Origin: a virus | Direction: 5' to 3' (one strand) | IMG/VR virus record: IMGVR_UViG_3300032046_000120 | Coordinates: 1-33,772 of that record | Length of the DNA: 33,772 nt | In this document: positions 4,843 through 25,262 of the stretch, in pieces | How positions within the stretch are numbered: the first letter of the stretch is position 1 | Layout: each line of letters opens with the position of its first letter | Notes under the pieces: generated by a model | What the model was told of the DNA's origin: nothing | What the model saw: the letters and a program-made list of their open reading frames with translations, nothing else | Databases searched by the model: none | Position numbers and translations under genes: made by a program

Positions 4843-7800
4843 ATGGCGGTTATAAATCTAGTTGCAACGTCTATAATAAAAAATTCTAAAACTATTCCAC
4901 TCGTTTGGACAGTAGACCGAGGAGCATGTGAGCCCTTCTTTGATTATGATGAGGAGGGAAATCCGACAAACTTCGGAATAGACGATGAACCTCCCGATCC
5001 TAATGTAGATGACATATTAAAAATGGATATGTCTAGACTCCTATATAACGTGTCTCCTTCTCAATTCGCAGAAACAGCTATTCAAATTCCCTCAGCAGGA
5101 ATAGTTGCGCCTTTTAGTTTTAAAGGTCGAGAATATTTAAGAAGAATATACGATACACCATCTAAAAAAGTACTCCTATTAGCCGGACGCCAAGTTGAGA
5201 AGTGCGTTGAAATTTCTAGTATTTGCAGACTTTATAATGGAGCACCTAAATTAGCTGGGGATATTACTGTTGGAGATCAAGTAGTTTCAATGTCCAAAGA
5301 TGGAATTACTATGACCGTGGGAACAGTATCGTGGGTTTCCAAAAGACATTTTAAAGAGTGCGTTAAGATAACCACTCGTCAAGGTCATGAAACAACTCTT
5401 GCTCTTACTCATCCACTTCGTACTTGGAACTCTTGGACATTAACAAAAGATTTGAAAGTCGGAGATAAAATAGCTGCGGTACGACATTGTGGAATTTTTT
5501 CCGAAGAATACTCGCCAAGTAAAGAACAGATTCGTTTAGCTACTTATTGTATATCTAATATTAACCCTATTCCACCCTATATCTTTCAACTTTCTAAAGA
5601 AAATACGGCCCTATTTTTAAATAACTTATGGCATATTTATGGGCATATAAAAAAAGTAAACAAATCTCAATATTCAGCAGAATACCGTTTCTTTTCTAAA
5701 TCTGTAATAAAAGATATACAAGCCCTTCTTTGGAAATTTGGAATACCTTCAAAAATTAAAAACAGAAACGACCTATGGGTACTACGAATTAAAACTGGAG
5801 AATGCCTTCGTATTTTTCTAGACGAAATAAAGGATCTAAAAAAATATGAAAATGCCACCTCCCCTCTAAAAAAAATAAATGCGCAATTATATACAGATTT
5901 ATATTGGGATAGAGTTAAAAAAATAGAGTCTATGGGAGAACAGGAATGTGTTGATTTTACAGTAGAAGGTACTGAGAATTTTGTGGGGGACGGGCTTATC
6001 TCCCACAATTCGACGTCTATTGGTAATAGAATGTTATGTTATTCTGCTTTGATTAACAACTTTAGATCTCTTTATGTATCGCCCTCAGCAGAACAAACTA
6101 AAGCTTTTTCTACTGATCGTGTAAAAGACGTAATTGAAAATTCTCCCTTATTAAAAGCATATATGACTACTAGAATTGACCAGGCAGTTTTCTTTAAAAA
6201 ATTCATTAACTTTTCTCAAATACGACTTAGATACGCTTATTTAAATGCTGATAGATGCCGTGGTCTTCCCGCAGACTGTATTACTATTGATGAACTTCAA
6301 GATATTCTCATAGATAATATACCCATTATTGAACAATCTGCATTTCACTCAATACATAAATTATTCATCTATTCAGGTACTCCAAAATCAGAAGACAATA
6401 CAATCGAACATTATTGGCAAGAATTTTCTACTCAAAATGAGTGGGTTATTCCATGTGAACGACATGGCACTCCTAAAGATTCATCTAGTTGGCACTGGAA
6501 TATACTTGGAGAACACAATATTGGAAAAGTTGGAACTGTTTGTGATAAATGTCATGAACCTATAAGTGCTTCTCATCCAATGGCACAATGGGCATCTATG
6601 AATCCCAGTACAGCAGAAAATAAAGATAAGGTAACTTTCGAAGGATATCATATTCCTCAACTTATGGTTTCTTGGGTAGATTGGAATGAGATATTAGAAG
6701 CTCAAGTACATTATCCTCGTGCTCAGTTTATGAACGAAAAACTGGGTAGGTCTTATGATTCTGGGGTAAGACCTATTACTAGAGCTCAATTACAAGCATG
6801 TTGTAAACCACATATCCAAATGGGAGATATAGAGAACTTCAAGCAAATTGCTCAAGGTAGACAAATATATTGCGGTTTAGATTGGGGGTGCCATGATAAA
6901 GAAACTAGAATTCTAACTGATAGAGGATTTGTTTATTTTGAAGACCTTATTTCATCTGATAAGGTAGCTCAATGGGATCCTAATACTCATTCAATGACCT
7001 TTGTTACCCCGTTAGCTACAACAATAAAATCCTATACTGGAGACTTATTACATTTTACGAGTCAGCAAGATGATTTAATGGTAACTCCAGATCATAAAAT
7101 GCGAGTACTAGAAAAGACGGGTTCTTGGGTTACTGAGTTAGCGTATCAAACTATGTTACATCTTGATGATATTGACTTTAATAACGCTATAGAGTGGGAA
7201 GGCGAAGATAAAAAGTTTATTAATATTACTCCAAATAAAGCTGTTCTTATAGAAGATTGGTTAGAATTTCTAGGGTACTTCTTATCTTTCGGAAGTCTAT
7301 TATTACCTAATATTGGACCTTATATCACATCTGATTTTAAAATTCGGTATATACTTCTAGAACCCAAAAACATACCAAAACAGTCATTAACGTATATTCA
7401 TTCTTGCTTATCCAGACTAGGACTTTCTTATACGTATCACTCCGAATTTATAAACAAAATTCCTAGATTTACAATACTCATAACAGAATCGACGCCTAAA
7501 AAATATGACGAATGGGATTGGCTATATCGTTTTGTAGGGACTAAAAAAACAAAGCAAATTCCACGTAAATTTTTAAATTTTTCCCGTAGATTATTAACTA
7601 TATTATTTAATGCCATCACTATTTTACGTGAAGATGACTTAGAAGGGCAGTTTTTATCTACTACAAAAAAACTCAATCTCGATTTTATAGAATTATGCAT
7701 TAAAGTAGGGGTATTATGTGAAGGTTGTGTTTATTACCCTGCAAATAATCAAGAACCAGAATATTGGAGTAACTCTTGGAACAGAGTGTCTTCTAATCAC

Positions 7801-8517
7801 GTAAACAGAACTGCGAAATATATAGCATATGATGGCCCTGTTTTTTGTTGTACTGTGCCTTCAGGATACATCGTAACAGAAAGAAATGGGCGAGTAGCCT
7901 ATCAAGGAAATAGCGGAGAAAACACATATACTGTAATAAGTTTTGGGGGGTACTTAGGTACAGGTAACTTTACGATTTTTTGGGTTCATAGGTTTACTGG
8001 ACCAGATTTAGAACCCGATAGGCAACTTGACTTAATTTCTCAAATGATTTCACAATTACAAGTACAAATAGTTGGAGTAGACTACGGTGGTGGATTTTAT
8101 CAGAATAATACATTAATAAAACGTTTTGGTCCGCATAAAATAATTAAATATCAATATAATCCTAGACAAAGAAAAAAGATATACTGGGAACCAAATCTTC
8201 TTAGATATATGTGCCATCGTAGTGAAATTATGAATGATATCTTCACAGCTTTAAAACGTAAGTTAGTAGATTTACCTAACTGGGAAGAGTTCCAGTCTCC
8301 TTATGGTCAAGATATTTTAAATATTTTTACAGAGTATAATAATAGACTGCGTATGGAAGAATATAAACATTCACCAGGAAAAACAGACGATTCTTTTCAC
8401 TCTTTAGTCTATCTTCTTTTAGCTTCTATGATTCAACATCCTAGACCCGATATTATTAGACCTACTCAAGATAGTGGAGTTCCTCCACACCATGAACAAC
8501 TAAGTACTTCTCTTTAA
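4843..8517 (+). CDS. terL: Terminase large subunit with two inteins
   Basis: 1224 residues as translated, about 614 after removal of two inteins (121-389 and 683-1023). The spliced protein has the two parts of a packaging motor. The ATPase has a P-loop GRQVEK (115-120) joined to STS (390-392) and a Walker B ITIDELQD with D483-E484. A Cys/His zinc-like insert follows (CERHG, then CDKCHEP). The RNase H-like headful nuclease has D680 (GLDWG), D1080 (VGVDYGG) and D1182-D1183 (TDDSFH). TerL docks on the portal, cuts concatemers and drives DNA into the head. The P-loop has Glu before Lys where Gly is usual. A TGGAGA site precedes the ATG. It is convergent with the next minus-strand gene, with 12 bases between. 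Confidence 0.93.
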   Translation: MAVINLVATSIIKNSKTIPLVWTVDRGACEPFFDYDEEGNPTNFGIDDEPPDPNVDDILKMDMSRLLYNVSPSQFAETAIQIPSAGIVAPFSFKGREYLRRIYDTPSKKVLLLAGRQVEKCVEISSICRLYNGAPKLAGDITVGDQVVSMSKDGITMTVGTVSWVSKRHFKECVKITTRQGHETTLALTHPLRTWNSWTLTKDLKVGDKIAAVRHCGIFSEEYSPSKEQIRLATYCISNINPIPPYIFQLSKENTALFLNNLWHIYGHIKKVNKSQYSAEYRFFSKSVIKDIQALLWKFGIPSKIKNRNDLWVLRIKTGECLRIFLDEIKDLKKYENATSPLKKINAQLYTDLYWDRVKKIESMGEQECVDFTVEGTENFVGDGLISHNSTSIGNRMLCYSALINNFRSLYVSPSAEQTKAFSTDRVKDVIENSPLLKAYMTTRIDQAVFFKKFINFSQIRLRYAYLNADRCRGLPADCITIDELQDILIDNIPIIEQSAFHSIHKLFIYSGTPKSEDNTIEHYWQEFSTQNEWVIPCERHGTPKDSSSWHWNILGEHNIGKVGTVCDKCHEPISASHPMAQWASMNPSTAENKDKVTFEGYHIPQLMVSWVDWNEILEAQVHYPRAQFMNEKLGRSYDSGVRPITRAQLQACCKPHIQMGDIENFKQIAQGRQIYCGLDWGCHDKETRILTDRGFVYFEDLISSDKVAQWDPNTHSMTFVTPLATTIKSYTGDLLHFTSQQDDLMVTPDHKMRVLEKTGSWVTELAYQTMLHLDDIDFNNAIEWEGEDKKFINITPNKAVLIEDWLEFLGYFLSFGSLLLPNIGPYITSDFKIRYILLEPKNIPKQSLTYIHSCLSRLGLSYTYHSEFINKIPRFTILITESTPKKYDEWDWLYRFVGTKKTKQIPRKFLNFSRRLLTILFNAITILREDDLEGQFLSTTKKLNLDFIELCIKVGVLCEGCVYYPANNQEPEYWSNSWNRVSSNHVNRTAKYIAYDGPVFCCTVPSGYIVTERNGRVAYQGNSGENTYTVISFGGYLGTGNFTIFWVHRFTGPDLEPDRQLDLISQMISQLQVQIVGVDYGGGFYQNNTLIKRFGPHKIIKYQYNPRQRKKIYWEPNLLRYMCHRSEIMNDIFTALKRKLVDLPNWEEFQSPYGQDILNIFTEYNNRLRMEEYKHSPGKTDDSFHSLVYLLLASMIQHPRPDIIRPTQDSGVPPHHEQLSTSL
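5203..6009 (+). other. Intein 1 of terminase, inserted in the Walker A motif
   Basis: 269 residues (C121-N389 of the precursor). It begins with Cys (CVEISSICRLYNG), has a block-B T-x-x-H (LALTHPL), and ends VGDGLISHN followed by Ser390 as +1 nucleophile, all standard for a class 1 intein. Excision joins GRQVEK to STSIGN and restores a P-loop. The central region has LAGLIDADG-like helices (for example SVIKDIQALLWKFGIPSKI), but no acidic L-x-x-x-x-D-G-D/A-D-G motif remains, so the endonuclease appears dead. The splicing residues look intact. Confidence 0.92.
6889..7911 (+). other. Intein 2 of terminase, inserted in the nuclease active site
   Basis: 341 residues (C683-N1023). It begins CHDKETRILTDRGFVYFEDL, has block B as VTPDHKM, and ends RVAYQGN followed by Ser1024. 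The penultimate residue is Gly where His is usual. Splicing joins YCGLDWG to SGENTYT, rebuilding the strand with the first nuclease Asp (D680). Degenerate LAGLIDADG motifs remain: LGYFLSFGSL has Phe where Asp should be, and the second motif (LLTILFNAITIL) has no acid, so homing activity is probably lost. Confidence 0.9.
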
Positions 8518-13970: not shown

Positions 13971-16900
13971 TTAATATTCTCCAGGTTTGCCTTTGCCCAT
14001 TTCCGCTCCGTACACTACAGGTGGAATTGGGTGGGCGCCATGTAGTTTAGAAGTCCACCCTTGTTGAGCAGCTTCTATAATAGTTTTGGAAAGATTCTGG
14101 TGATTTAATCTAGCCATCCAATCTTCTTGCATATCTAAAGGTAGGACATTAACCCCCTTTAAAATAGGTTGATGTACTATCGGCCTACCATCTTTAGGAA
14201 GTTTTTTATTAAAACTGGTAACATGAGATAGCGGTGCAAAATCACCTCGAATAAAGCCTTTATGATCACCAGGGTCGTCTATTTTTGTAAGATTCGTTAA
14301 AGCTTTTATAACAATTTCAGTATTCCTACGACGAACACCTGTATGACCATACAGTTCGTGTAAGGCATTAGCTAAATACCCTTGTACTGGTTCCATACCT
14401 GTAAGAGGTAACATTTCATGAGGATTAATAGGGCCATTAGAAATAGGTGACCCCTTTTTAATTTCATCACCTATTTTTAAAGATACCCCATTTTGTTGTG
14501 GTATTCCTAAGTTATTAGGAACGTAGTGACGCTTTCCTCCAATGAATACGTTATGTCCACCTGCAGGGTCTTTATCCATTTTCTCTATCTTACCAGAAAC
14601 TGTACTTAATGAAGCAGAACCAGGAAGAATTTGAGGAAACATTAAAAGGGCTTTAACTCGATCAAATTCATCAGCTAATACTTCTTTAGAAGACGCAGAC
14701 CCCCCTGAATGGAAGCCACGCATCGCTAATTGAGTAGACCTTTCTCCTAAAGCTTGCCCTGCTAGTACTCCTACATTAGTCCCAATATCAGGTAATACAC
14801 CATTCTCACTTAATCCATGGCATTTTTGGCATACACCAGGACCGTGGTTACAACGTAATGGAGAACGAACCATAATCTTACCAACTTTATTATTTCGTAA
14901 AGTATTCTTAACTTCTGATGTAATTAAAGTACCTGCTTTAATTGTATCTTTACCTATTTTAACATCGGCAGCTAAATACCTATCTAAAATGTCCTTTTCA
15001 TCAATTGATAATGTTATTCCTCGGTCAGTTCCACAGTCATTATCCACAATCAGATTATTCATAACAGAGTTCATTACCATTTTAGACATATATCCAGGTT
15101 CTCGAACTTGCTGTACCTTTTGAATAACCCCCTTTCTAGCCCCCGACATGGATGTCCAATAATCTGCAAAATCTAAACCTTCAGAAAAGGATCTTCTAAC
15201 TGGAGTAGCTATTGTTTCACCTTTAGCATTAATCATAAGCATTGGAGCTATCTTTATTTGCCTTACAATCTCTGTACTGGGTTTTATACCTGCTCTAGAC
15301 ATTGTAATAAGATTACTCTTAGATTCTGACATACCCTCTATATGCCTATTTAATTCTTGAGTAACTTTGGCATAAATTTGAATAGCTTTAAGATCCTTAT
15401 CTTTTCCCTTAAGTTCTGAAACTGCTAAATCTGCTTTAGCCAATAATTGATCTCTCATAACTTTATCGGGTTTTATATCTTCCATTCCAAGACTAAAACC
15501 TGTAGAAGTAGACCACGCATTTCCCAGGTCTTTTAACTTATTAGCAACATCCCCGTATTCTTTTTTATGATTTTTACCTATTTGAGTCAGAAGATCTATT
15601 TGCCTATTTTTATTGAGGGGCTCGTCACTTTTTATTATCTCTTCTCTCATAGATTCGGGAAAAGCTTTTGCTATTAAAAAACGTCCTGCTGTAGAGGACA
15701 CGCCACCTACTTTAATTTGATGTGTATAATCAATTTCCCCTTTTCGTAAAGCAGACTCCATATCGGCTAAGGTAGAAAAAGCCTTATTAGTTTTAAGGCC
15801 TATTTTAGCCATTCCATATAAACCTAGTTGAGCCTCATTGGTGGGAGTATACATAACTGTCCCAGATGAGGGGCTAAAAATATTACTGGAAGGGTACATA
15901 TGACGAGCTTCTACTACCGCCTCTGGTGATATAGGGACAAATGCAGACATGGTATCCCAAACTATAAGCCCATTATTAACAGAAAAAACTTTTGTGGTAG
16001 GAATAACTAGATCCGAAACGGTTTGTCTAGTTACTTTTCCTAGTTTTTGAATTGTAACCCATTTAATGGGGGATAGAACTAAATTTTTCCAATAAGCGTC
16101 TATTTCATTATTCAAATTAAGATACGGCAACATTAAAAATGCGGTATCTCTAGATACTCTAAATCCAACAGCTTTTTCTTTACTTTTTCTATTAGCAAGA
16201 GACCTAACAACAGTAGGGTGATCATTATACATAAGATGTAATTTACTAGAAAATTTGTCTATTATACTGAACGGAATAGGAACTACATCTCGATCATCTT
16301 TAGTTGGGGGATAATTCGTATACTGTGACATAAATTCGTCATAGCCAATAATAAGTAACTTTGGAAGTAAACTGTAAATATCCACAGTACTAAAATTAAT
16401 AGTATAGTTGACTCTTTTTTGTACTCTATTAGGTGCTGGAGGAGTTTCAGAAACACTACAACGTATACCAAGTAAAAAACACAATTGTTTTATATCTTCT
16501 TTTAGTCCTTTAGAACTAGTATTAAAAGAAGCCATAAGTTGCGGTCTAGTCTTGGCATGAGATAAAGATAACGATCCATCTCCGCACAATAAACCTGACA
16601 AAACTCCTAATAGCGCTTCTTTAGAATAGTTACCCATATTATCTGGTAACCGTTTTAAAAGGCACGATCTAAAAGAATAATCATCAGGCATTATGTTACT
16701 ATCCCCCCCTTTTAAATAATTGATATACGAAGGGTCATAACATTGGGAAAAGAATTCATATAACTTAGTCGAAACGGTTATATGGTCTTTAATAGATTTG
16801 TCAGATAAATCCTTAGGGCACCTCTTTTCACGAGAATATGTATATCTACCAGAGACGCCCCCCATATTTTGTAGAGCAAGATAAAAATAGTCTCGTATAT

Positions 16901-19900
16901 TCTGATTGACTTTGCATATTCCTATCGTAGGGTAATCAAGTAAAAATCCATCAGAAGCAAATAAACCTATTGCCCAGCCTACTTGTTTATTAAATAGTCC
17001 ATCAATATACTCAGGTGGTGAAACAACAGGACTTAAAGCACCGATAGATTCAGAAGGTTTAGCTTTTCGTAATTGTCCGGTTTCATGGTTATAAATACAT
17101 AAACTCTCATTTGTAGACGCAGTTACTTCATAATCATTAGAATAAAAAATCTCTACTGTCTCACAATTTTCTTCTATTGTTAATTCAGTAACCTCTTGAT
17201 ACGTAGATTCTCCCGCAAGATGATCATAAGATAAAACTTGAATACCTTCAGGAACTCTATAAATATCCGCCCCATTTTTATCTTTTTTATATGGCTTATC
17301 TTCTCTTGGAAAATCTCCGATTTCTAATTCTACAATAATTCCGTCATTAACAGTTAATTTTGATTTCGTAGTAAACGGCATAAGTTTCTCCTTGTGTGAG
17401 TCTCTTATGCCATATTTAATATAAACTTTGGAGCTATTTATGATACAGTTACCATCGAAATCAGCTCCAAAGCCAGCAGTAACCAAGGGATGAATTTGAA
17501 CAGCTTTACCGTATACTATTCTTGGTTTAAATGCTTGTATACCGTACTTATGAAGTACTGGATCTCTTTTCAAAAGTAGAGGTCTATTTTCTATTACTCG
17601 TTCAAGAGCTTTTTGAACTAAACCCCCACCTTCTTTAACTTGCTTTTGTGCTTCTAATGGGGATACGCCCGTTAAGTTTCTTAGTTCACGAATAATAAAG
17701 GGCTTATAGATTTCTAATGCCGCTTGCCGTGGGATACCTACCTCATCTAGACCCATTGACGGTTCTGGAACAATTGTTGACCGCATAGATAAATCTTGCC
17801 GGCGGTTAACAAGTTTACTTTGAAAATAACCTGCTTTAGGAGAGCCCGTCTTTTCCCCAGTTCCTTTTGCACCTTCTCTAACGGGCATTTTACCTTGAAT
17901 GATATCCAAGACCCCCCTAAAATCCCTATTCATTGTTCCACCGAGCCCTATTAGAGACCTTAGACCATCATATATTTCAGCTTTAATCTCGTGTTTCTCA
18001 CTTTCAGGCATAAGTGGAGAAAGGGAATTTAATCTACTTATCGATAATCCAATGCCCTTATACATTTGATTTAGATCATCAAAATTAATATCCCCATTAG
18101 GTCTATGAGATAAAGGACGCATTATAGGAGGGAGTACTGGAATATACTTCATCATATATGCATCTTTTGCTGATAACCCAGCATTAGTTAAAGCAGCTAA
18201 ATATCTAATCTTTTTATTAATTTGATCTAAACGATTTCCTTTTAAACCGGGTTTTTCTATCTGTTTTTTAGCCGCTTCTAATTCTTTAGAGATATCTATA
18301 TTTCCAAGTAAGTGGTCTATAGCCTTACCAGAAGTTAAATACTTATCGGTATCTGAACTTAAACCACTAATATGGGGATTTATTGAAGACTTTCCAGACA
18401 TTATATTTTCGTAATCGACTGTACTTAAACCAGTAAGACACTGAATAGATTTTTCAAAGAGGGGATTAGGCATAGCATAAGGAAGATTCATATGTGACCA
18501 TTTTGTGCCACTAATCCCCCCAGTTGTTTTAATATCGAAGAGGCCGTCCTTTTCTTCTTTTAAATCCTTAGCTCGTACCATGCGTCCTGGATCCTTTATA
18601 ACCCCGTTACTCATTTCCAGAACATTCTTATCGGTAAACGGAATAAGCTGAAGATTATTGCCCTCTTTCTTAGCATTAACCCCCATAGCATTAAGGTAAC
18701 TTATAAACTTTTGATAAGCGAAAGTAGGTCGAGGTGCTGGTAAAGGTTCCCCAGATTGTAGTGCAGTCCAGAAAGCATCTGATTGCTGAGAATCAGATCG
18801 AATTGTTTGAAACTCTCTTAAATTTTCTTTTGCTCCATGTGCAAGCATCGAATAAAGTCCGAGAGTATCTAGTGCTTGCCCCCCTTGATGAGTTCCACGT
18901 TTAGGAATTAAGTTCATATCATAAACATATCCGGGCCCTCCAGCTCGATATGTCAATTTCTTATCCACTTGATGTTTAAGTTTTATAATATTTTGAGGCC
19001 CCACTAAAACATTTCCCATTACTTTTCCAGTAATGGGGTCTATAACCTCTTCTTTATCAGATATCCCATGCTTCTTAAGTTCTTCAGTTATATAAGCATG
19101 TAAATCTGGAATAGAGGGATCAAAATTCTTAATTAGAAAAGGTTTACCTGTTTTTTCAGCAATCTTTCCAGCCGCTGTTTCTAGTACCTGTCCTAAATTT
19201 ACTCTACCCGGAATTGTAGTAGCATTCATTAAGACATCTAATACTTTACCGCCTTTAGTATGCGGCATTTCTGCATCAGTCAATATTTTACATACGATCC
19301 CTTTATTACCATGAGTTCCAGATAACTTATCCCCTATCTCCATAGGTTCTAATGTTTTTATATGAACAGTAGTTTCTTTTCCATGCTTTATAACTTCTGT
19401 TACTACTCCTGGGTAATCAGCATCCCAACGTTCACTAACATTTCGATAAGGTCGAACTAAAGACTTATGTAATTTAGCTAATTCTTTATCTTCTGCTCGA
19501 TTTTGTTGTTCTCTAAGAGCTGCAATAATAGTATCCCCTGGTACAACAGTAGTACCCAGTTTTATAACACCGTCGTCATCTAATTTTGCAGATTGTTCTC
19601 GAGTTAAAATATGGGGAACATAAGCCTGAAATTTACCCTTATTTAAAATAAGAGACGAATCAGTTTCTATTGTTTTTCTATATAAATGCTCACTAGATAA
19701 TTTCTTTGCTGCAGCTTCTGAAATTACAACACCATCATCAAAATTGTATCCTTTATAAGGTAAGTAACCGACATAAAGGTTAGTACCTAATGCTAATACA
19801 CCATTCTTTGTAAAATTAGAATCCGCTATAGCTTGGCCCTTTACAACTTTGTCACCTATTTTTACTAATGGGGTAGAATGTAAAAAAGCTTTATCAGAAT

Positions 19901-21623
19901 TAAGCGGAAAATGATCATAGAGTTGATGTTCTATTTTTTTCCCTTGATCATCCTTTACTAATATAAAATCTTTACCAATATTTACTACTTCACCATCAAT
20001 TTTAGATACGTGCCCTGCGAAAGTACCCATTAATTCAGAAAACGTTTTATTTCCTGCCACACTCTGTACTAAGGGGGCTTCTCTATGAGCTAGAGATATT
20101 GCCTGTTCCATATGACGACCAGCCATAGTGCTTCTAAGAGGATGGTCTGCACCCATGAATGGAATAAGATTAGACGCCATAGAAAACATTTGAATAGGAT
20201 CACGCATAACATAATGAGCGTCTTTAATTGAACCTTCTACGATGTCATTACCTACAGCACTTATTTTTATTTTATTATGGATAGGTATAGGTTTTCCGTT
20301 TTTCCACTGAACTTGATCAGGAAGAACCACTTTGGATTTCATAACCATTTCAGGATTTACATCTTCAATTTTTTCAGTTTTAAGATTATACATTTTTATG
20401 TATACATCTTGACCCTTTTTTTGAACCCCAATTGGAAGATGAAGAGTAACTCCTGTAGTAGCTCCTTCACTAGTATGAATAGCATCTAAAAACCCAAGAT
20501 GAGATGGGTCTATTAGTTTCGCCTCTTCTGTAATTTGATGTTCACTTTTAATACCCCCTTCTCCTGTAATTGTTGTTTTCATTTGACCAGAAATCATCTC
20601 TAATGGATTTGTTTGCTCTGGTAAATTAGATAGCGAAGTATAGAACATAGTACGAATAGGTTTTTGGAAAACATCAGGACCTATAATATCTCTAACTTCT
20701 ATTTTCCTATCTACGCCATTCTGTAATTTACGAAGTATCTCTTTAGAGTGTTTCTGAAGACGATCAGTTATAAAATCTTCTGTAGAACGAAGATTTTTAA
20801 ACATTAAAGCGTCTCTTGTATCTGGAGGTACCTTTCCTTGAGAAATATGTAAAAGTTTAGTAGCCGCATCTAATAACGATGGGCCGGTTACTTTTTTATA
20901 TTCCTTACCTAAAGTAATCCTTGTTGTTTCTGGACTAAGCACGGTAGCTTCAAGTGTATCCATAAGATATTGTTTAGCTTGGGTAGTATCTTCTGCTTTA
21001 TTTCCGGTTGCTGCTTTATAGAATTTATCCAATGCTAAAGAAGAACTAAAGTGGTTTGCATCAGTTATTTCTTTTCCCCATTTAGTCTCTATTTCTGTAG
21101 TGGGTATTCCTAATTCCATTAAGAGTGGTTTCAAAGGAATATTTGAAGAACCGTAGCCCATAGTAAATTTACGAGTTTTAGGATCAAATTCTAAATTAAA
21201 TCCCTTTCCTTTAGCTAAATTAAATCTAGATTCCAACTCTCCATTATCTTTAATTCGAGCATATACACCTGATTTTAATTGCCATTGGTTATCTATTTGA
21301 TATTCATTACCATCAACAATATGAGAATACCGTCTTGTTATTTTAGGCAAGCTCATTAAACGAATCTTTTGTTGATTGATTATATTACCTGTTTCTTTAT
21401 CTTTTAAAGCAATAGTAGCTTCTACAGGTACTGACCAACTTCTTCCATTTAATTTAGCTGTTTTTTGAGAACGAATATCATCAATATCCAAGTCATCTTT
21501 AACTTGAATATCTTGTAATTCCATTATATTTTTTTTCCCAATGATCGGAAAAAGCTTACTAATTGTGCTAGTTACCCCGTCTTCGAGAAGCTTAAACCCC
21601 TCTTCGGGAGAGAGACGCGCCAT
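13971..21623 (-). CDS. Single-chain beta-beta' multisubunit-type RNA polymerase with an intein
   Basis: 2550 residues, about 2052 after removal of an intein (1393-1890). The N-terminal half matches bacterial beta: KGYNFDDGVVISEA, then GDKLSGTHGNKG (~760), MPHTKGGKVLDVLMNA, PGRVNLGQVLE and THQGGQALDTLG. The C-terminal half matches beta': GLDEVGIPRQAALEIYKPF, AFKPRIVYGKAVQIHPLVTA, the metal loop ADFDG (1387-1391), GARKG, a zinc-type CNHGPGVCQKCHG (~2255) and trigger-loop LAMRGFHSGG (~2295). It should transcribe phage genes. No alpha, omega or sigma is seen in the window. The spliced loop reads GADFDGN-TM instead of NADFDGD-x-M, an unusual catalytic site. It sits inside the virion block, so it might be carried in the particle, but this is inference. 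GAGGAG precedes the ATG. Confidence 0.93.
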   Translation of the reverse strand: MARLSPEEGFKLLEDGVTSTISKLFPIIGKKNIMELQDIQVKDDLDIDDIRSQKTAKLNGRSWSVPVEATIALKDKETGNIINQQKIRLMSLPKITRRYSHIVDGNEYQIDNQWQLKSGVYARIKDNGELESRFNLAKGKGFNLEFDPKTRKFTMGYGSSNIPLKPLLMELGIPTTEIETKWGKEITDANHFSSSLALDKFYKAATGNKAEDTTQAKQYLMDTLEATVLSPETTRITLGKEYKKVTGPSLLDAATKLLHISQGKVPPDTRDALMFKNLRSTEDFITDRLQKHSKEILRKLQNGVDRKIEVRDIIGPDVFQKPIRTMFYTSLSNLPEQTNPLEMISGQMKTTITGEGGIKSEHQITEEAKLIDPSHLGFLDAIHTSEGATTGVTLHLPIGVQKKGQDVYIKMYNLKTEKIEDVNPEMVMKSKVVLPDQVQWKNGKPIPIHNKIKISAVGNDIVEGSIKDAHYVMRDPIQMFSMASNLIPFMGADHPLRSTMAGRHMEQAISLAHREAPLVQSVAGNKTFSELMGTFAGHVSKIDGEVVNIGKDFILVKDDQGKKIEHQLYDHFPLNSDKAFLHSTPLVKIGDKVVKGQAIADSNFTKNGVLALGTNLYVGYLPYKGYNFDDGVVISEAAAKKLSSEHLYRKTIETDSSLILNKGKFQAYVPHILTREQSAKLDDDGVIKLGTTVVPGDTIIAALREQQNRAEDKELAKLHKSLVRPYRNVSERWDADYPGVVTEVIKHGKETTVHIKTLEPMEIGDKLSGTHGNKGIVCKILTDAEMPHTKGGKVLDVLMNATTIPGRVNLGQVLETAAGKIAEKTGKPFLIKNFDPSIPDLHAYITEELKKHGISDKEEVIDPITGKVMGNVLVGPQNIIKLKHQVDKKLTYRAGGPGYVYDMNLIPKRGTHQGGQALDTLGLYSMLAHGAKENLREFQTIRSDSQQSDAFWTALQSGEPLPAPRPTFAYQKFISYLNAMGVNAKKEGNNLQLIPFTDKNVLEMSNGVIKDPGRMVRAKDLKEEKDGLFDIKTTGGISGTKWSHMNLPYAMPNPLFEKSIQCLTGLSTVDYENIMSGKSSINPHISGLSSDTDKYLTSGKAIDHLLGNIDISKELEAAKKQIEKPGLKGNRLDQINKKIRYLAALTNAGLSAKDAYMMKYIPVLPPIMRPLSHRPNGDINFDDLNQMYKGIGLSISRLNSLSPLMPESEKHEIKAEIYDGLRSLIGLGGTMNRDFRGVLDIIQGKMPVREGAKGTGEKTGSPKAGYFQSKLVNRRQDLSMRSTIVPEPSMGLDEVGIPRQAALEIYKPFIIRELRNLTGVSPLEAQKQVKEGGGLVQKALERVIENRPLLLKRDPVLHKYGIQAFKPRIVYGKAVQIHPLVTAGFGADFDGNCIINSSKVYIKYGIRDSHKEKLMPFTTKSKLTVNDGIIVELEIGDFPREDKPYKKDKNGADIYRVPEGIQVLSYDHLAGESTYQEVTELTIEENCETVEIFYSNDYEVTASTNESLCIYNHETGQLRKAKPSESIGALSPVVSPPEYIDGLFNKQVGWAIGLFASDGFLLDYPTIGICKVNQNIRDYFYLALQNMGGVSGRYTYSREKRCPKDLSDKSIKDHITVSTKLYEFFSQCYDPSYINYLKGGDSNIMPDDYSFRSCLLKRLPDNMGNYSKEALLGVLSGLLCGDGSLSLSHAKTRPQLMASFNTSSKGLKEDIKQLCFLLGIRCSVSETPPAPNRVQKRVNYTINFSTVDIYSLLPKLLIIGYDEFMSQYTNYPPTKDDRDVVPIPFSIIDKFSSKLHLMYNDHPTVVRSLANRKSKEKAVGFRVSRDTAFLMLPYLNLNNEIDAYWKNLVLSPIKWVTIQKLGKVTRQTVSDLVIPTTKVFSVNNGLIVWDTMSAFVPISPEAVVEARHMYPSSNIFSPSSGTVMYTPTNEAQLGLYGMAKIGLKTNKAFSTLADMESALRKGEIDYTHQIKVGGVSSTAGRFLIAKAFPESMREEIIKSDEPLNKNRQIDLLTQIGKNHKKEYGDVANKLKDLGNAWSTSTGFSLGMEDIKPDKVMRDQLLAKADLAVSELKGKDKDLKAIQIYAKVTQELNRHIEGMSESKSNLITMSRAGIKPSTEIVRQIKIAPMLMINAKGETIATPVRRSFSEGLDFADYWTSMSGARKGVIQKVQQVREPGYMSKMVMNSVMNNLIVDNDCGTDRGITLSIDEKDILDRYLAADVKIGKDTIKAGTLITSEVKNTLRNNKVGKIMVRSPLRCNHGPGVCQKCHGLSENGVLPDIGTNVGVLAGQALGERSTQLAMRGFHSGGSASSKEVLADEFDRVKALLMFPQILPGSASLSTVSGKIEKMDKDPAGGHNVFIGGKRHYVPNNLGIPQQNGVSLKIGDEIKKGSPISNGPINPHEMLPLTGMEPVQGYLANALHELYGHTGVRRRNTEIVIKALTNLTKIDDPGDHKGFIRGDFAPLSHVTSFNKKLPKDGRPIVHQPILKGVNVLPLDMQEDWMARLNHQNLSKTIIEAAQQGWTSKLHGAHPIPPVVYGAEMGKGKPGEY
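15954..17447 (-). other. Intein of the RNA polymerase with intact LAGLIDADG motifs
   Basis: 498 residues (C1393-D1890). It begins CIINSSKVYIKYG right after ADFDGN and ends KVFSVNNGLIVWD before Thr1891 (TMSAFVPIS). The final residue is Asp, not Asn, with Trp before it, and block B reads EVTASTNESL with no clear His. Two LAGLIDADG motifs keep their acids: AIGLFASDGFL and GVLSGLLCGDGSL, suggesting a live homing endonuclease. The boundary is uncertain by one residue at each end: cutting G/N and W/D instead would restore ADFDGDTM, but this would need Asn as first residue. Confidence 0.88.
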
Positions 21624-22390: not shown

Positions 22391-22408
22391 TTATTTGTAA
22401 TCAAATAA
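22391..22408. terminator. Small stem-loop at convergent gene ends
   Basis: TTATTTG (22391-22397) pairs with CAAATAA (22402-22408), with a 4-base loop, at the junction between the Cys-rich plus-strand gene and the end of the portal gene. It could act in both directions, but it is short and AT-rich. Confidence 0.35.
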
Positions 22409-25262
22409 GTGACGATTCCGGGCCCCTTCGTGCTGGCTTCTGCTCCGGCAGAGGTCTAGCCGAATCGGTACTGGCTTGAGTGGGTCCCTGTGACCCACTC
22501 ATCATTAGCCCCAAAACAACATCATGAAGTTCTGGATTTCGTTGCTTTAATTCTGCTAAAGCTTGCGGCTTTGTCATAGCGTCTAAACCACTAAACCTAT
22601 CTGCTAGTTGCCTACCCATAAGAAGAAGGTCTACGTTTGTTTTACCTAGGAAATCCTCCCCAGTAGACGTTAAAGGGATAGGCTGTACGGAGCGCAAGGT
22701 AAGCGGGGACTGTACAGGATTCGGCATCTGTAAAAGTTCTGGATGTCTCCCCTGAACTTGCAATTCTAGTTGCGATGGAGGAACTTCCCCTCCTTGCCCC
22801 ATACTTTGTTGCATTTGTCCCTGAAAGGCCATTTGATCTTTGGCCATCTCCCCCTGAATTGCCATCTGTTCTTTCATCTGTTGAGACTGAGCCTTCTGCT
22901 GCCATTTCATAGTCACCCATTGAGATTCTCCTTGAATTTCTGCCTCTAATAATTGTTGTTTTTTAATCGCACCCGCTCTACGAGTAGCCTCCCTCTCCAT
23001 AATTTGGTCTTCTTTCTCAGAATCAAATTCAGCATCTGCAAGTAAAGATTCATCCGATAACTTTTTAGCTTGATTAAGTTGAAATAGATACGCCTTTCTT
23101 TGTAGATCATCAGCCATTTTAAAGGGCTTAAATCTAGTTCTAACTTGTGACCAACCTAGATATGCCGCGGTATTTTTAATTATCCATTTAAGTAAAGATT
23201 TATGATCCTGAAGATACCCTAGGAAAGTATTTTCTAACATTCTAAGAGATACATTACTCGCAGAAAAACTAAGCCCTCCAAAAATCAATTCAACAGGTAC
23301 TCCCATACCTGCTATAATCTGCTCTGATTCTAATCTAATTTCCTGATTCAGCATAAGAGCTCGACCATCTCCACCTATAGTCTGATTCCCTATAGGTAAA
23401 GGTAGGATAGGAATATAATTACTATTATGAGTAGCTACCCCCCATGTACAAAACGTACTATCCCCGTCCATCTCAAAGCCAATAACAGTTTCAGTAGTAG
23501 CATCGTATTTTCCAGAAATACGATACCAAAAATAACCATCTTTAAATTCACCTAATGCGGAGTTTAGAATTTCCGGAGAACTACATTTACCCCATTTGAA
23601 TTTTAAGAATTGTGTGTAAGAGCCTGAAATTTTAATAGTATAATAACGTAACGCATCCAAGGTTTCAAATTCGTAAAAATTTAACTCTGGAACGATACCG
23701 AGAGATAAAAGAATTTGACGGATATCCTCAGCTAAATTTATATTACGCGTATAAAAGTTTACTTCGGAGACTTTTATTTCACCAATTACATCAACGAGTG
23801 CCCTTAAAAATTTAAATAAAAATTCTTCATCTGCAAGTTTAATGTTTCTGGGTATTACTTTTTCGAATGTACCTATACTAAACGCTAAATCGGTATACGC
23901 TCCTAAATTACTCGTGTTGATAATTGGAACTTGGTTAAGTAACCTTTCATATACTGGGTAGCCTACATAATCCCCACATTTTAAATCCTTAACTTCTATA
24001 AACTCAGGCTTATTTATGACTTTGTCCTCACTAGATTTTGCAATAGACCATATAGGATGATTTTCAGAATAAATAGTCTGTACCGCGGCTAAGCCATCTA
24101 TCTTTAATTTATAAACCCGCTCATTTTCACGAAGAGGGCGCTCCCATTTTTTAATTACTTTACAAAATTCACCTAGTTTATTTTTAAGTAAATCCCCCTC
24201 TGTAATATATTTAGCCTGACGAATACCATCTATTGTTTCAACATAGGATTCTGGAGTAATACAATCCGCTCTCCAACGCTTTATTTCAGAAGCTACTTGA
24301 TCTCTCCAACTTAAAAGATTTACAGAACTATATGGATCTGAACTTGCTGAACCCGATTGTGGAAATAAAATCCTTAATGGAACAATATGTTCCAAACATA
24401 TAGACTCTTGAGCCTTTCGCATAATCTGAAGATAGAAAGTATTTTTTAGAACTGGAAGGATCATGGGTGTTCCCCAACCCCTATCTTTTCCAGCAAGAGT
24501 GGGTCGTTTAAAATGATAAATATTATTTTTTGAAAAGACTACTGCCTTTCGTTGACGCATAGATTCTATAAACAATTGGGGAATAGTTTCAACTGTAGAT
24601 TTTTTACCTATAATCACATCATTTTTAAGTGTGGTAGGAATTTCGTAATAATATTCATAATCTCCAGTAATTTCATTATACCGAATATCGACATCTTCTG
24701 GATTCCAACGTAGAAGCCGAATACCATTGGGAGCTTTAATATAATGATCATGAACTTTAGCTGGCCCATGATGACTACAGTAACGACAAGCTATAATGAA
24801 TTGAAAATTTTGAAACCTATAATCTGCATCCTTAGCAAATTGTTTTTTCTTACACTGAGGGCATTCTAGAAGTTTAATAAACGGATAAAAAATACTTATA
24901 AGTGCATTACCATAAACATGGTAATCTAATCCAACTTCAACTTGAAAAGCTCTATAACGTAAATGATCTAAAAGGAAATTACCCCATAAATCTTTTAATT
25001 CTGGTCTTTCTGTGTCGAACAAAACATCCGTAATTGGATATTCAGACATTTTGAATACTACAGCATTAATTAAAGGGTTAACTAAAAAATAATACCTGCA
25101 CCATCGGAACATCATCTTTACAGTGGCAGGCAAGTACGTGTGAGCTATATCAAAAAATGGACTTGGATACTGAAGACCAAATTCATTTGAACCACTAATT
25201 CTTCCACGTAAGGGAGAAAACCTAAGAGCACTCTGCGCACCAATCATTCCAATATCAGACAT
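22401..25262 (-). CDS. Portal protein with an intein
   Basis: 953 residues as translated, about 673 after removal of intein 334-613. The N-terminal part reads like a T4-gp20-type portal: YLPATVKMMFRWCRYYFLVN, YHVYGNALISIFYPF, a four-Cys knuckle C134/C137/C159/C162, and LRWNPEDVDIRYNEITGDYE (the typical position-holding strand). After the splice come LMLNQEIRLESEQIIAGMGV and LIFGG, typical of the stem-to-wing region. The C-terminal ~150 residues are Gln/Met/Pro-rich low complexity (KAQSQQMKEQMAIQGEMAKD). The dodecameric portal is the DNA entry channel and terminase dock. It overlaps nothing and starts 1 base after the stop of the preceding gene (TAGTATG), with GAGGAA before the ATG. Confidence 0.88.
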   Translation of the reverse strand: MSDIGMIGAQSALRFSPLRGRISGSNEFGLQYPSPFFDIAHTYLPATVKMMFRWCRYYFLVNPLINAVVFKMSEYPITDVLFDTERPELKDLWGNFLLDHLRYRAFQVEVGLDYHVYGNALISIFYPFIKLLECPQCKKKQFAKDADYRFQNFQFIIACRYCSHHGPAKVHDHYIKAPNGIRLLRWNPEDVDIRYNEITGDYEYYYEIPTTLKNDVIIGKKSTVETIPQLFIESMRQRKAVVFSKNNIYHFKRPTLAGKDRGWGTPMILPVLKNTFYLQIMRKAQESICLEHIVPLRILFPQSGSASSDPYSSVNLLSWRDQVASEIKRWRADCITPESYVETIDGIRQAKYITEGDLLKNKLGEFCKVIKKWERPLRENERVYKLKIDGLAAVQTIYSENHPIWSIAKSSEDKVINKPEFIEVKDLKCGDYVGYPVYERLLNQVPIINTSNLGAYTDLAFSIGTFEKVIPRNIKLADEEFLFKFLRALVDVIGEIKVSEVNFYTRNINLAEDIRQILLSLGIVPELNFYEFETLDALRYYTIKISGSYTQFLKFKWGKCSSPEILNSALGEFKDGYFWYRISGKYDATTETVIGFEMDGDSTFCTWGVATHNSNYIPILPLPIGNQTIGGDGRALMLNQEIRLESEQIIAGMGVPVELIFGGLSFSASNVSLRMLENTFLGYLQDHKSLLKWIIKNTAAYLGWSQVRTRFKPFKMADDLQRKAYLFQLNQAKKLSDESLLADAEFDSEKEDQIMEREATRRAGAIKKQQLLEAEIQGESQWVTMKWQQKAQSQQMKEQMAIQGEMAKDQMAFQGQMQQSMGQGGEVPPSQLELQVQGRHPELLQMPNPVQSPLTLRSVQPIPLTSTGEDFLGKTNVDLLLMGRQLADRFSGLDAMTKPQALAELKQRNPELHDVVLGLMMSGSQGPTQASTDSARPLPEQKPARRGPESSLI
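23424..24263 (-). other. Intein of the portal protein
   Basis: 280 residues (C334-N613). It begins CITPESYVETIDGIRQAKYI, has block B as YSENHPIW (Ser in place of Thr, His kept) and ends CTWGVATHN before Ser614 (SNYIPILPLP). The splice joins IKRWRAD to SNYIPIL. The endonuclease part is degraded: FLRALVDVIGEI carries Ile where the catalytic Asp of FLRGLFDTDGSI-type motifs belongs. Splicing residues appear complete. Confidence 0.9.

Follow-up and report, generated by a model that had tools for sequence, protein, structure and literature searches.

Inteins in RNA polymerases are already known (PMC1635734). Inteins without the usual His residues splice (PMC4031507 among other sources), inteins terminated by Asp are able to do so (PMC4031507), and Chy RIR1, CIV RNR, and Pab PolII are listed as Asp- or Gln-terminated members of class 1 (Amitai 2004, as reported in PMC4031507). 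Outside inteins, Asn cyclisation results in deamidation of the side chain and not in cleavage (PMC4031507). In RNA polymerases, the three metal A aspartates are invariant and their mutation abolishes function, an Asp-to-Asn allele included, and plant Pol V is disrupted by an Asp-to-Asn exchange in the metal A motif (PMC2605557). Multisubunit RNA polymerases of cells and viruses are described as sharing the third Asp of DxDGD without exception. In the literature searched, in which the coverage of subscription journals is thin, no report was found of phage inteins at the Mg loop, of a clade with a fixed Asn at position -1, or of an intein that replaces a catalytic residue.

The stretch of DNA analysed here (the window) is the 33.8-kb virus record IMGVR_UViG_3300032046_000120 of IMG/VR. 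It encodes an RNA polymerase with beta and beta' in one chain of 2550 aa, or 2052 aa without its intein (Table 1). The polymerase matches RNA_pol_Rpb2_6, Rpb2_3, Rpb1_2, Rpb1_3, and Rpb1_5 of Pfam as well as the rpoB/rpoC models of NCBIfam, and besides the Mg loop its other motifs (MRGFHSGG, GDKxxxxHGNKG; domains Rpb1_2, _3, and _5) are intact. The insert is situated in frame at a conserved site and is missing from L005, L007, and 19 other distinct relatives. Its junctions read GADFDGN↓CIINS...LIVWD↓TMSAFVP, arrows marking the ordinary boundaries, at which the encoded extein contains DFDGN and fails the DxDGD metal A motif. The peptide predicted across the spliced junction is DFDG[N/D]TMSAFVPISPEAVVEAR. 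An earlier note on this DNA had described an intein of the Mg loop whose last residue is Asp and which puts Asn in place of the third Asp, and had remarked on its missing block B His; both statements are borne out, the former by the junction GADFDGN↓C...VWD↓TM and the latter by Glu at B:10 (STNES). Of the span given there (15954-17462), the lower end is correct, whereas the upper end also covers a portion of the N-extein, DFDGN, since the intein ends at 17447. LAGLIDADG_3 scores above its cut-off in this intein, and an AlphaFold2 model has a mean pLDDT of 82 with low confidence in the junction segments. The HINT fold is indicated by the best PDB matches in Foldseek, PI-PfuI (3e-19) and the TliVMA intein (5e-19), and a profile alignment with DnaB inteins of known structure places Lys F:13 at the block F His.

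Table 1. Coordinates of the polymerase gene, its intein and the further inteins of the window.
Feature	Position	Strand	Remarks
Fused beta-beta' multisubunit phage RNA polymerase, intein-interrupted	13971..21623	-	Pfam, NCBIfam, and IMG/VR relatives
N-type intein with LAGLIDADG homing endonuclease, Cys1-Asp498	15954..17447	-	Cys1393-Asp1890 of polymerase, 498 aa
N-extein Mg loop GADFDGN	17448..17468	-	DFDGD in 21/21 distinct intein-free relatives
Asn(-1), position of third catalytic Asp	17448..17450	-	Codon AAC
Cys1 of intein	17445..17447	-	Cys in 13/13 N-type inteins
Block B NESLC, Glu at B:10 (His usual)	17097..17111	-	Glu 13/13 N-type; His 16/18 D-type
Block F TTKVF, Lys at F:13 (His usual)	15984..15998	-	Lys 12/13 N-type; 0 D-/Q-type
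C-terminal junction IVWD↓T, Trp G:6 and Asp G:7	15951..15965	-	[WY]D↓T in 13/13 N-type
Asp G:7	15954..15956	-	
Thr+1	15951..15953	-	Codon ACC
Terminase large-subunit gene, two inteins	4843..8517	+	Several relatives align only outside inteins
Terminase intein 1, K↓C...HN↓S	5203..6009	+	269 aa, ordinary ends
Terminase intein 2, G↓C...GN↓S	6889..7911	+	341 aa, ordinary ends
Intein of portal-like gene (22401-25262), D↓C...THN↓S	23424..24263	-	280 aa, absent from most relatives

A whole-protein scan of IMG/VR with the window polymerase returned 35 related loci. In the alignment at DFDG that the earlier note had proposed as a check, every distinct intein-free relative has DFDGD, with A (12), T (8), or Q (1) as the next residue, and none has DFDGN. 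When all of IMG/VR was scanned for intein-free ADFDGN[AT]M, two matches were obtained, neither of them a polymerase, and DFDGN as a normal intein-free variant was thus not found in the IMG/VR scans. A phage collection searched with the intein at E 0.01 gave no match. Nothing points to a misread base at 17450, and such an error is very unlikely: IMG/VR contig 3300031999_000094 (L003) matches the window at 99.98% identity over 20.8 kb and has the same Asn codon, none of its 4 differences falling there, and in other IMG/VR contigs DFDGN↓C is likewise joined to a related intein. A one-off mutation is ruled out by the recurrence of this junction across further IMG/VR polymerases, which is new relative to the earlier note.

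An initial scan for ADFDGNC yielded more polymerases in which DFDGN↓C is combined with an intein ending in [WY]D↓T. To avoid bias from this pattern, profile scans were performed with the intein interior, junctions omitted; due to their short patterns these scans are selective and may miss distant members and those with other letters in blocks B and F. After removal of near-copies, 41 inteins were typed, with counts referring to sequences and rows being related. The N-type comprises 13 distinct inteins, all of the form N↓C...[WY]D↓T and with identities to the window intein down to 25%; that of L043 is a mini-intein of 290 aa. The 18 D-type inteins have Asp at -1, Ser, Cys, or Thr at position 1, and Asp as last residue (L109 being offset), and the 10 Q-type inteins have Asp at -1, any residue at 1, Ser-Asn as last residues, and Thr+1. 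The third Asp is retained in 28 out of 28 D- and Q-type polymerases, and Asp terminates 31 of the 41 related inteins. No N-type intein with another junction was returned by the junction-free scans. The pairs of -1 and last residue are (D,D) in 18, (N,D) in 13, (D,N) in 10, and (N,N) in none of the 41 inteins, and the chance of the latter absence would be approximately 0.012 under independence of the rows, an assumption that does not hold.

Among the N-types the codons of this Asn and Asp differ by silent changes, with both AAC and AAT at -1, and the N...D pair has therefore been maintained over long divergence. Over this deep divergence Cys1, the F:4 Asp (Asp in all 41 typed inteins), the terminal Asp, and Thr+1 are invariant in the N-type, and the frames are open. 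Two further positions separate the types, namely B:10, with Glu in the N-type versus predominantly His in the D-type, and F:13, with Lys in all N-type inteins except for L097 (Gln), Trp, Tyr, or others in the D-type, and Glu in the Q-type. The first Asn of NADFDGD, corresponding to 17466-17468 in the window, is missing from 9 out of 13 N-type polymerases compared to 5 out of 28 D- and Q-type polymerases (p 0.003, ignoring kinship), and either co-conversion or a compensating change is a possible cause of this loss. Two N-type loci, L074 and L075, belong to genome bins labelled Lentisphaera and Thermoplasmata; both may be phage DNA that was placed in the bin of a cellular genome.

With respect to the known intein classes, the combination of Cys1 and Thr+1 in all N-type inteins is that of class 1, the terminal Asp agrees with a variant form of class 1 only, and the B:10 His, which is usual but not strict in this class, is replaced by Glu. 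Class 3, with Cys at F:4, a WCT motif, and no nucleophile at position 1, is ruled out by the Asp at F:4 and the presence of Cys1, and class 2, without Cys or Ser at position 1, is ruled out for the N-type by Cys1 in all members. As far as they are described in PMC4031507, Chy RIR1, CIV RNR, and Pab PolII resemble the N-type in Cys or Ser at 1, a nucleophile at +1, and Asp or Gln instead of Asn at G:7, but differ from it in that the N-type carries Glu at B:10, Lys at F:13, Trp or Tyr at G:6, and an Asn(-1) that replaces a catalytic extein Asp. Within the same description the Asp terminus is a variant in that group, whereas it is the rule among the related inteins studied here. The D-type inteins (L083, L004, L111) share with the N-type the site, homology, mostly the [WY]D end, and the LAGLIDADG endonuclease, but have Asp at -1, Ser or Cys at 1, His at B:10, and no Lys at F:13. 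Archaeal RNA polymerase inteins (NCBIfam PRK14898 A''; Mja rPol A') are likewise found in largest-subunit homologues and show weak similarity in the splicing and endonuclease parts; unlike the window intein, the A'' intein of PRK14898 lies in another subunit region, and for these archaeal inteins no described swap of a catalytic residue at -1 was found. In the Q-type loci (L037, L120, L123, L125, L126, L129, and L132-L135) residue 1 varies (Q, L, K, C, Y, A, F) and F:4 lacks Cys, which places them outside both class 1 and class 3. Like the class 2 intein Mja KlbA they have no fixed nucleophile at 1 and a Ser-Asn C-terminus, but they differ from it in Thr+1, the absence of a block B His, and their nested position within the D-type. 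In the Q-type, the invariant extein Asp(-1) itself might open the N-terminal bond.

In the tree of the intein interior, the N-type forms one clade (100/100), and the Q-type forms one clade on the D-type side, nested within the D-type. In the tree of the polymerase part, the N-type label requires 9 changes, at least 6 of which are forced by well-supported branches, and the window polymerase is located among intein-free DFDGDAM enzymes. L106, L103, L097, and L091 are long branches in these trees. The single N-type clade of the intein tree and its scattered occurrence on the polymerase tree therefore point to transfer between polymerases together with the Asn: as judged from both trees, a single intein lineage has moved among polymerases, taking Asn(-1) and Thr+1 along. 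Independent origins of the Asn-Asp pair are rejected, since in the case of one N-type clade recurrence is due to transfer and not to convergence. An example of such movement is given by the D-type locus L004, which has an intein, and L024, which has none. Their polymerases are near-identical, yet silent differences are concentrated next to the insertion, upstream as well as downstream, and most of the flanking differences of L004 are common to three carriers of different background. This pattern is interpreted as co-conversion during homing, spanning the codons of -1 and +1.

Thus Asn keeps arriving at a position at which the recipient cell must repair it, live with it, or splice by a novel route. 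These are the three outcomes (change to Asp, tolerance, unusual splicing) listed in the earlier note; neither of the observations that it named as refuting, intein-free relatives with DFDGN or a sequencing error, was encountered. The one-residue shift of both boundaries proposed there is disfavoured by L109, by the nucleophile at +1 in all 41 inteins, and by the spacing of block A. According to that proposal, the N-type intein would extend from Asn to Trp or Tyr and the following Asp would be the third Asp of the extein, which yields DFDGD-TM directly. DFDGDTM is indeed restored in all 13 N-type loci in this way, the absence of (N,N) is accounted for, and it is the sole reading that gives DFDGD without a separate repair step. 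Starting from a D...D ancestor the product would not change, and such a shift could have evolved silently and without loss; for these reasons it is kept above zero. However, it would need an unknown type of chemistry with Asn first, Cys second, and Asp at +1, and we know of no intein chemistry for cleavage at Trp-Asp and Gly-Asn. In L109 (3986-5488), a homologous D-type intein is located two codons downstream, DFDGDAM↓SVRGD...VVWD↓SVYLPITP, and the conserved DFDGDAMSVYLP is obtained only if Ser...Asp is removed. Due to this observation the terminal Asp is assigned to the intein in the D-type and, by homology, probably to that of the N-type as well. In case of the Q-type, with Asn as last residue at the same site, DFDGD is given only by the ordinary boundaries. 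Furthermore, all 41 inteins are followed directly by T, S, or C, compared to T at this position in 8 out of 21 intein-free relatives, as expected for a +1 nucleophile. Because the terminal Asp is removed in L109 and Cys1, Thr+1, and the block spacing (block A places the Cys at position 1) are canonical, the sequences favour the ordinary boundaries, which encode DFDGN-TM, and a shifted register is considered clearly improbable.

Our preferred reading, held tentatively and with somewhat less than even confidence, is that the N-type is a mobile, Asp-terminated intein with ordinary boundaries whose Asn(-1) would most likely be converted to Asp, giving a mature DFDGD. The sequence comparisons support the recurrence of the Asn, its descent within one clade, its horizontal movement with the intein, the type-specific active site, and the removal of the terminal Asp in the homologue at another site. 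That the window intein splices at all, its register, and the step from Asn to Asp are inferred. Removal of the amide is deduced from the need of the polymerase for the third Asp of DFDGD, and conversion is placed ahead because the Asn has been introduced time and again into enzymes whose design depends on Asp. The intein apparently requires the Asn, since a single base change restores Asp but is unseen in every N-type lineage found. In the proposed course, co-conversion upon homing would carry Asn(-1) along with the intein whenever it enters another polymerase. Cys1 would activate the carbonyl of Asn(-1), Thr+1 would accept the N-extein, and the terminal Asp would cyclise and free the intein. 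Before or during splicing, the side-chain amide of Asn(-1) would be lost through Cys1, Glu B:10, Lys F:13, and Asp G:7, either hydrolytically, with Cys1 acting together with Glu B:10 and Lys F:13, or by handing the amide over to the terminal Asp and so creating the Asp...Asn pair that the Q-type encodes directly. Nitrilase-type amidases use a Cys-Glu-Lys triad, which the set of Cys1, Glu B:10, and Lys F:13 resembles by analogy only; considering the Gln of L097, Lys is not absolutely required. It also speaks against conversion that the D-type manages with Asp at -1, so that an advantage of Asn is unexplained, and that an active site altered at the first Asn of NADFDGD could compensate. To our knowledge, no intein deamidates its own extein, and no intein class edits or rebuilds a catalytic residue in splicing. 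That the catalytic residue is rebuilt at all, be it by edited splicing, in which an amide-masked Asp is unmasked by hydrolysis or transfer, or by out-of-register splicing, appears slightly more probable than its opposite.

The main rival to conversion is tolerance of the Asn, i.e., ordinary boundaries without repair and a mature DFDGN-TM that works, perhaps aided by nearby changes. No new chemistry is necessary in this case, Asp-ending inteins are already known, and the altered first Asn of NADFDGD in most N-type polymerases would fit such an aid. Asn is also present at metal-binding motifs of some viral polymerases, e.g., GDN in RNA-dependent polymerases of negative-strand viruses. On the other hand, DFDGN without an intein is absent from the scans although it is one point mutation away from DFDGD, Asn enters unrelated polymerases which previously used Asp, and Asp is kept in each of the D-type, Q-type, and intein-free polymerases. 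Considering also that all three Asp are invariant and essential according to the literature (PMC2605557), tolerance is judged rather unlikely. It is very improbable that the N-type insert is dead and the polymerase either inactive or functional as cleaved pieces. The block B His, the penultimate His, and the terminal Asn are all replaced, and the junction segments are those modelled poorly; however, known inteins splice without such His residues, and the invariant Cys1, F:4 Asp, terminal Asp, and Thr+1, the open frames, and the intact remaining polymerase motifs are not in agreement with a dead insert.

An invading element has thus repeatedly replaced the third Asp at the DNA level, and nothing suggests that the polymerase was given up. 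The metal site is either less strict than assumed, or else inteins can turn one extein residue into another or join exteins in a new register, and any of these outcomes would be new. The occurrence of N-, D-, and Q-type at one site provides a natural series for the evolution of intein active sites. If true, an Asn-to-Asp intein or new junction rules would be a useful tool. The record as a whole contains four inteins in three genes, the others being located in the genes of the terminase large subunit and the portal-like protein (Table 1).
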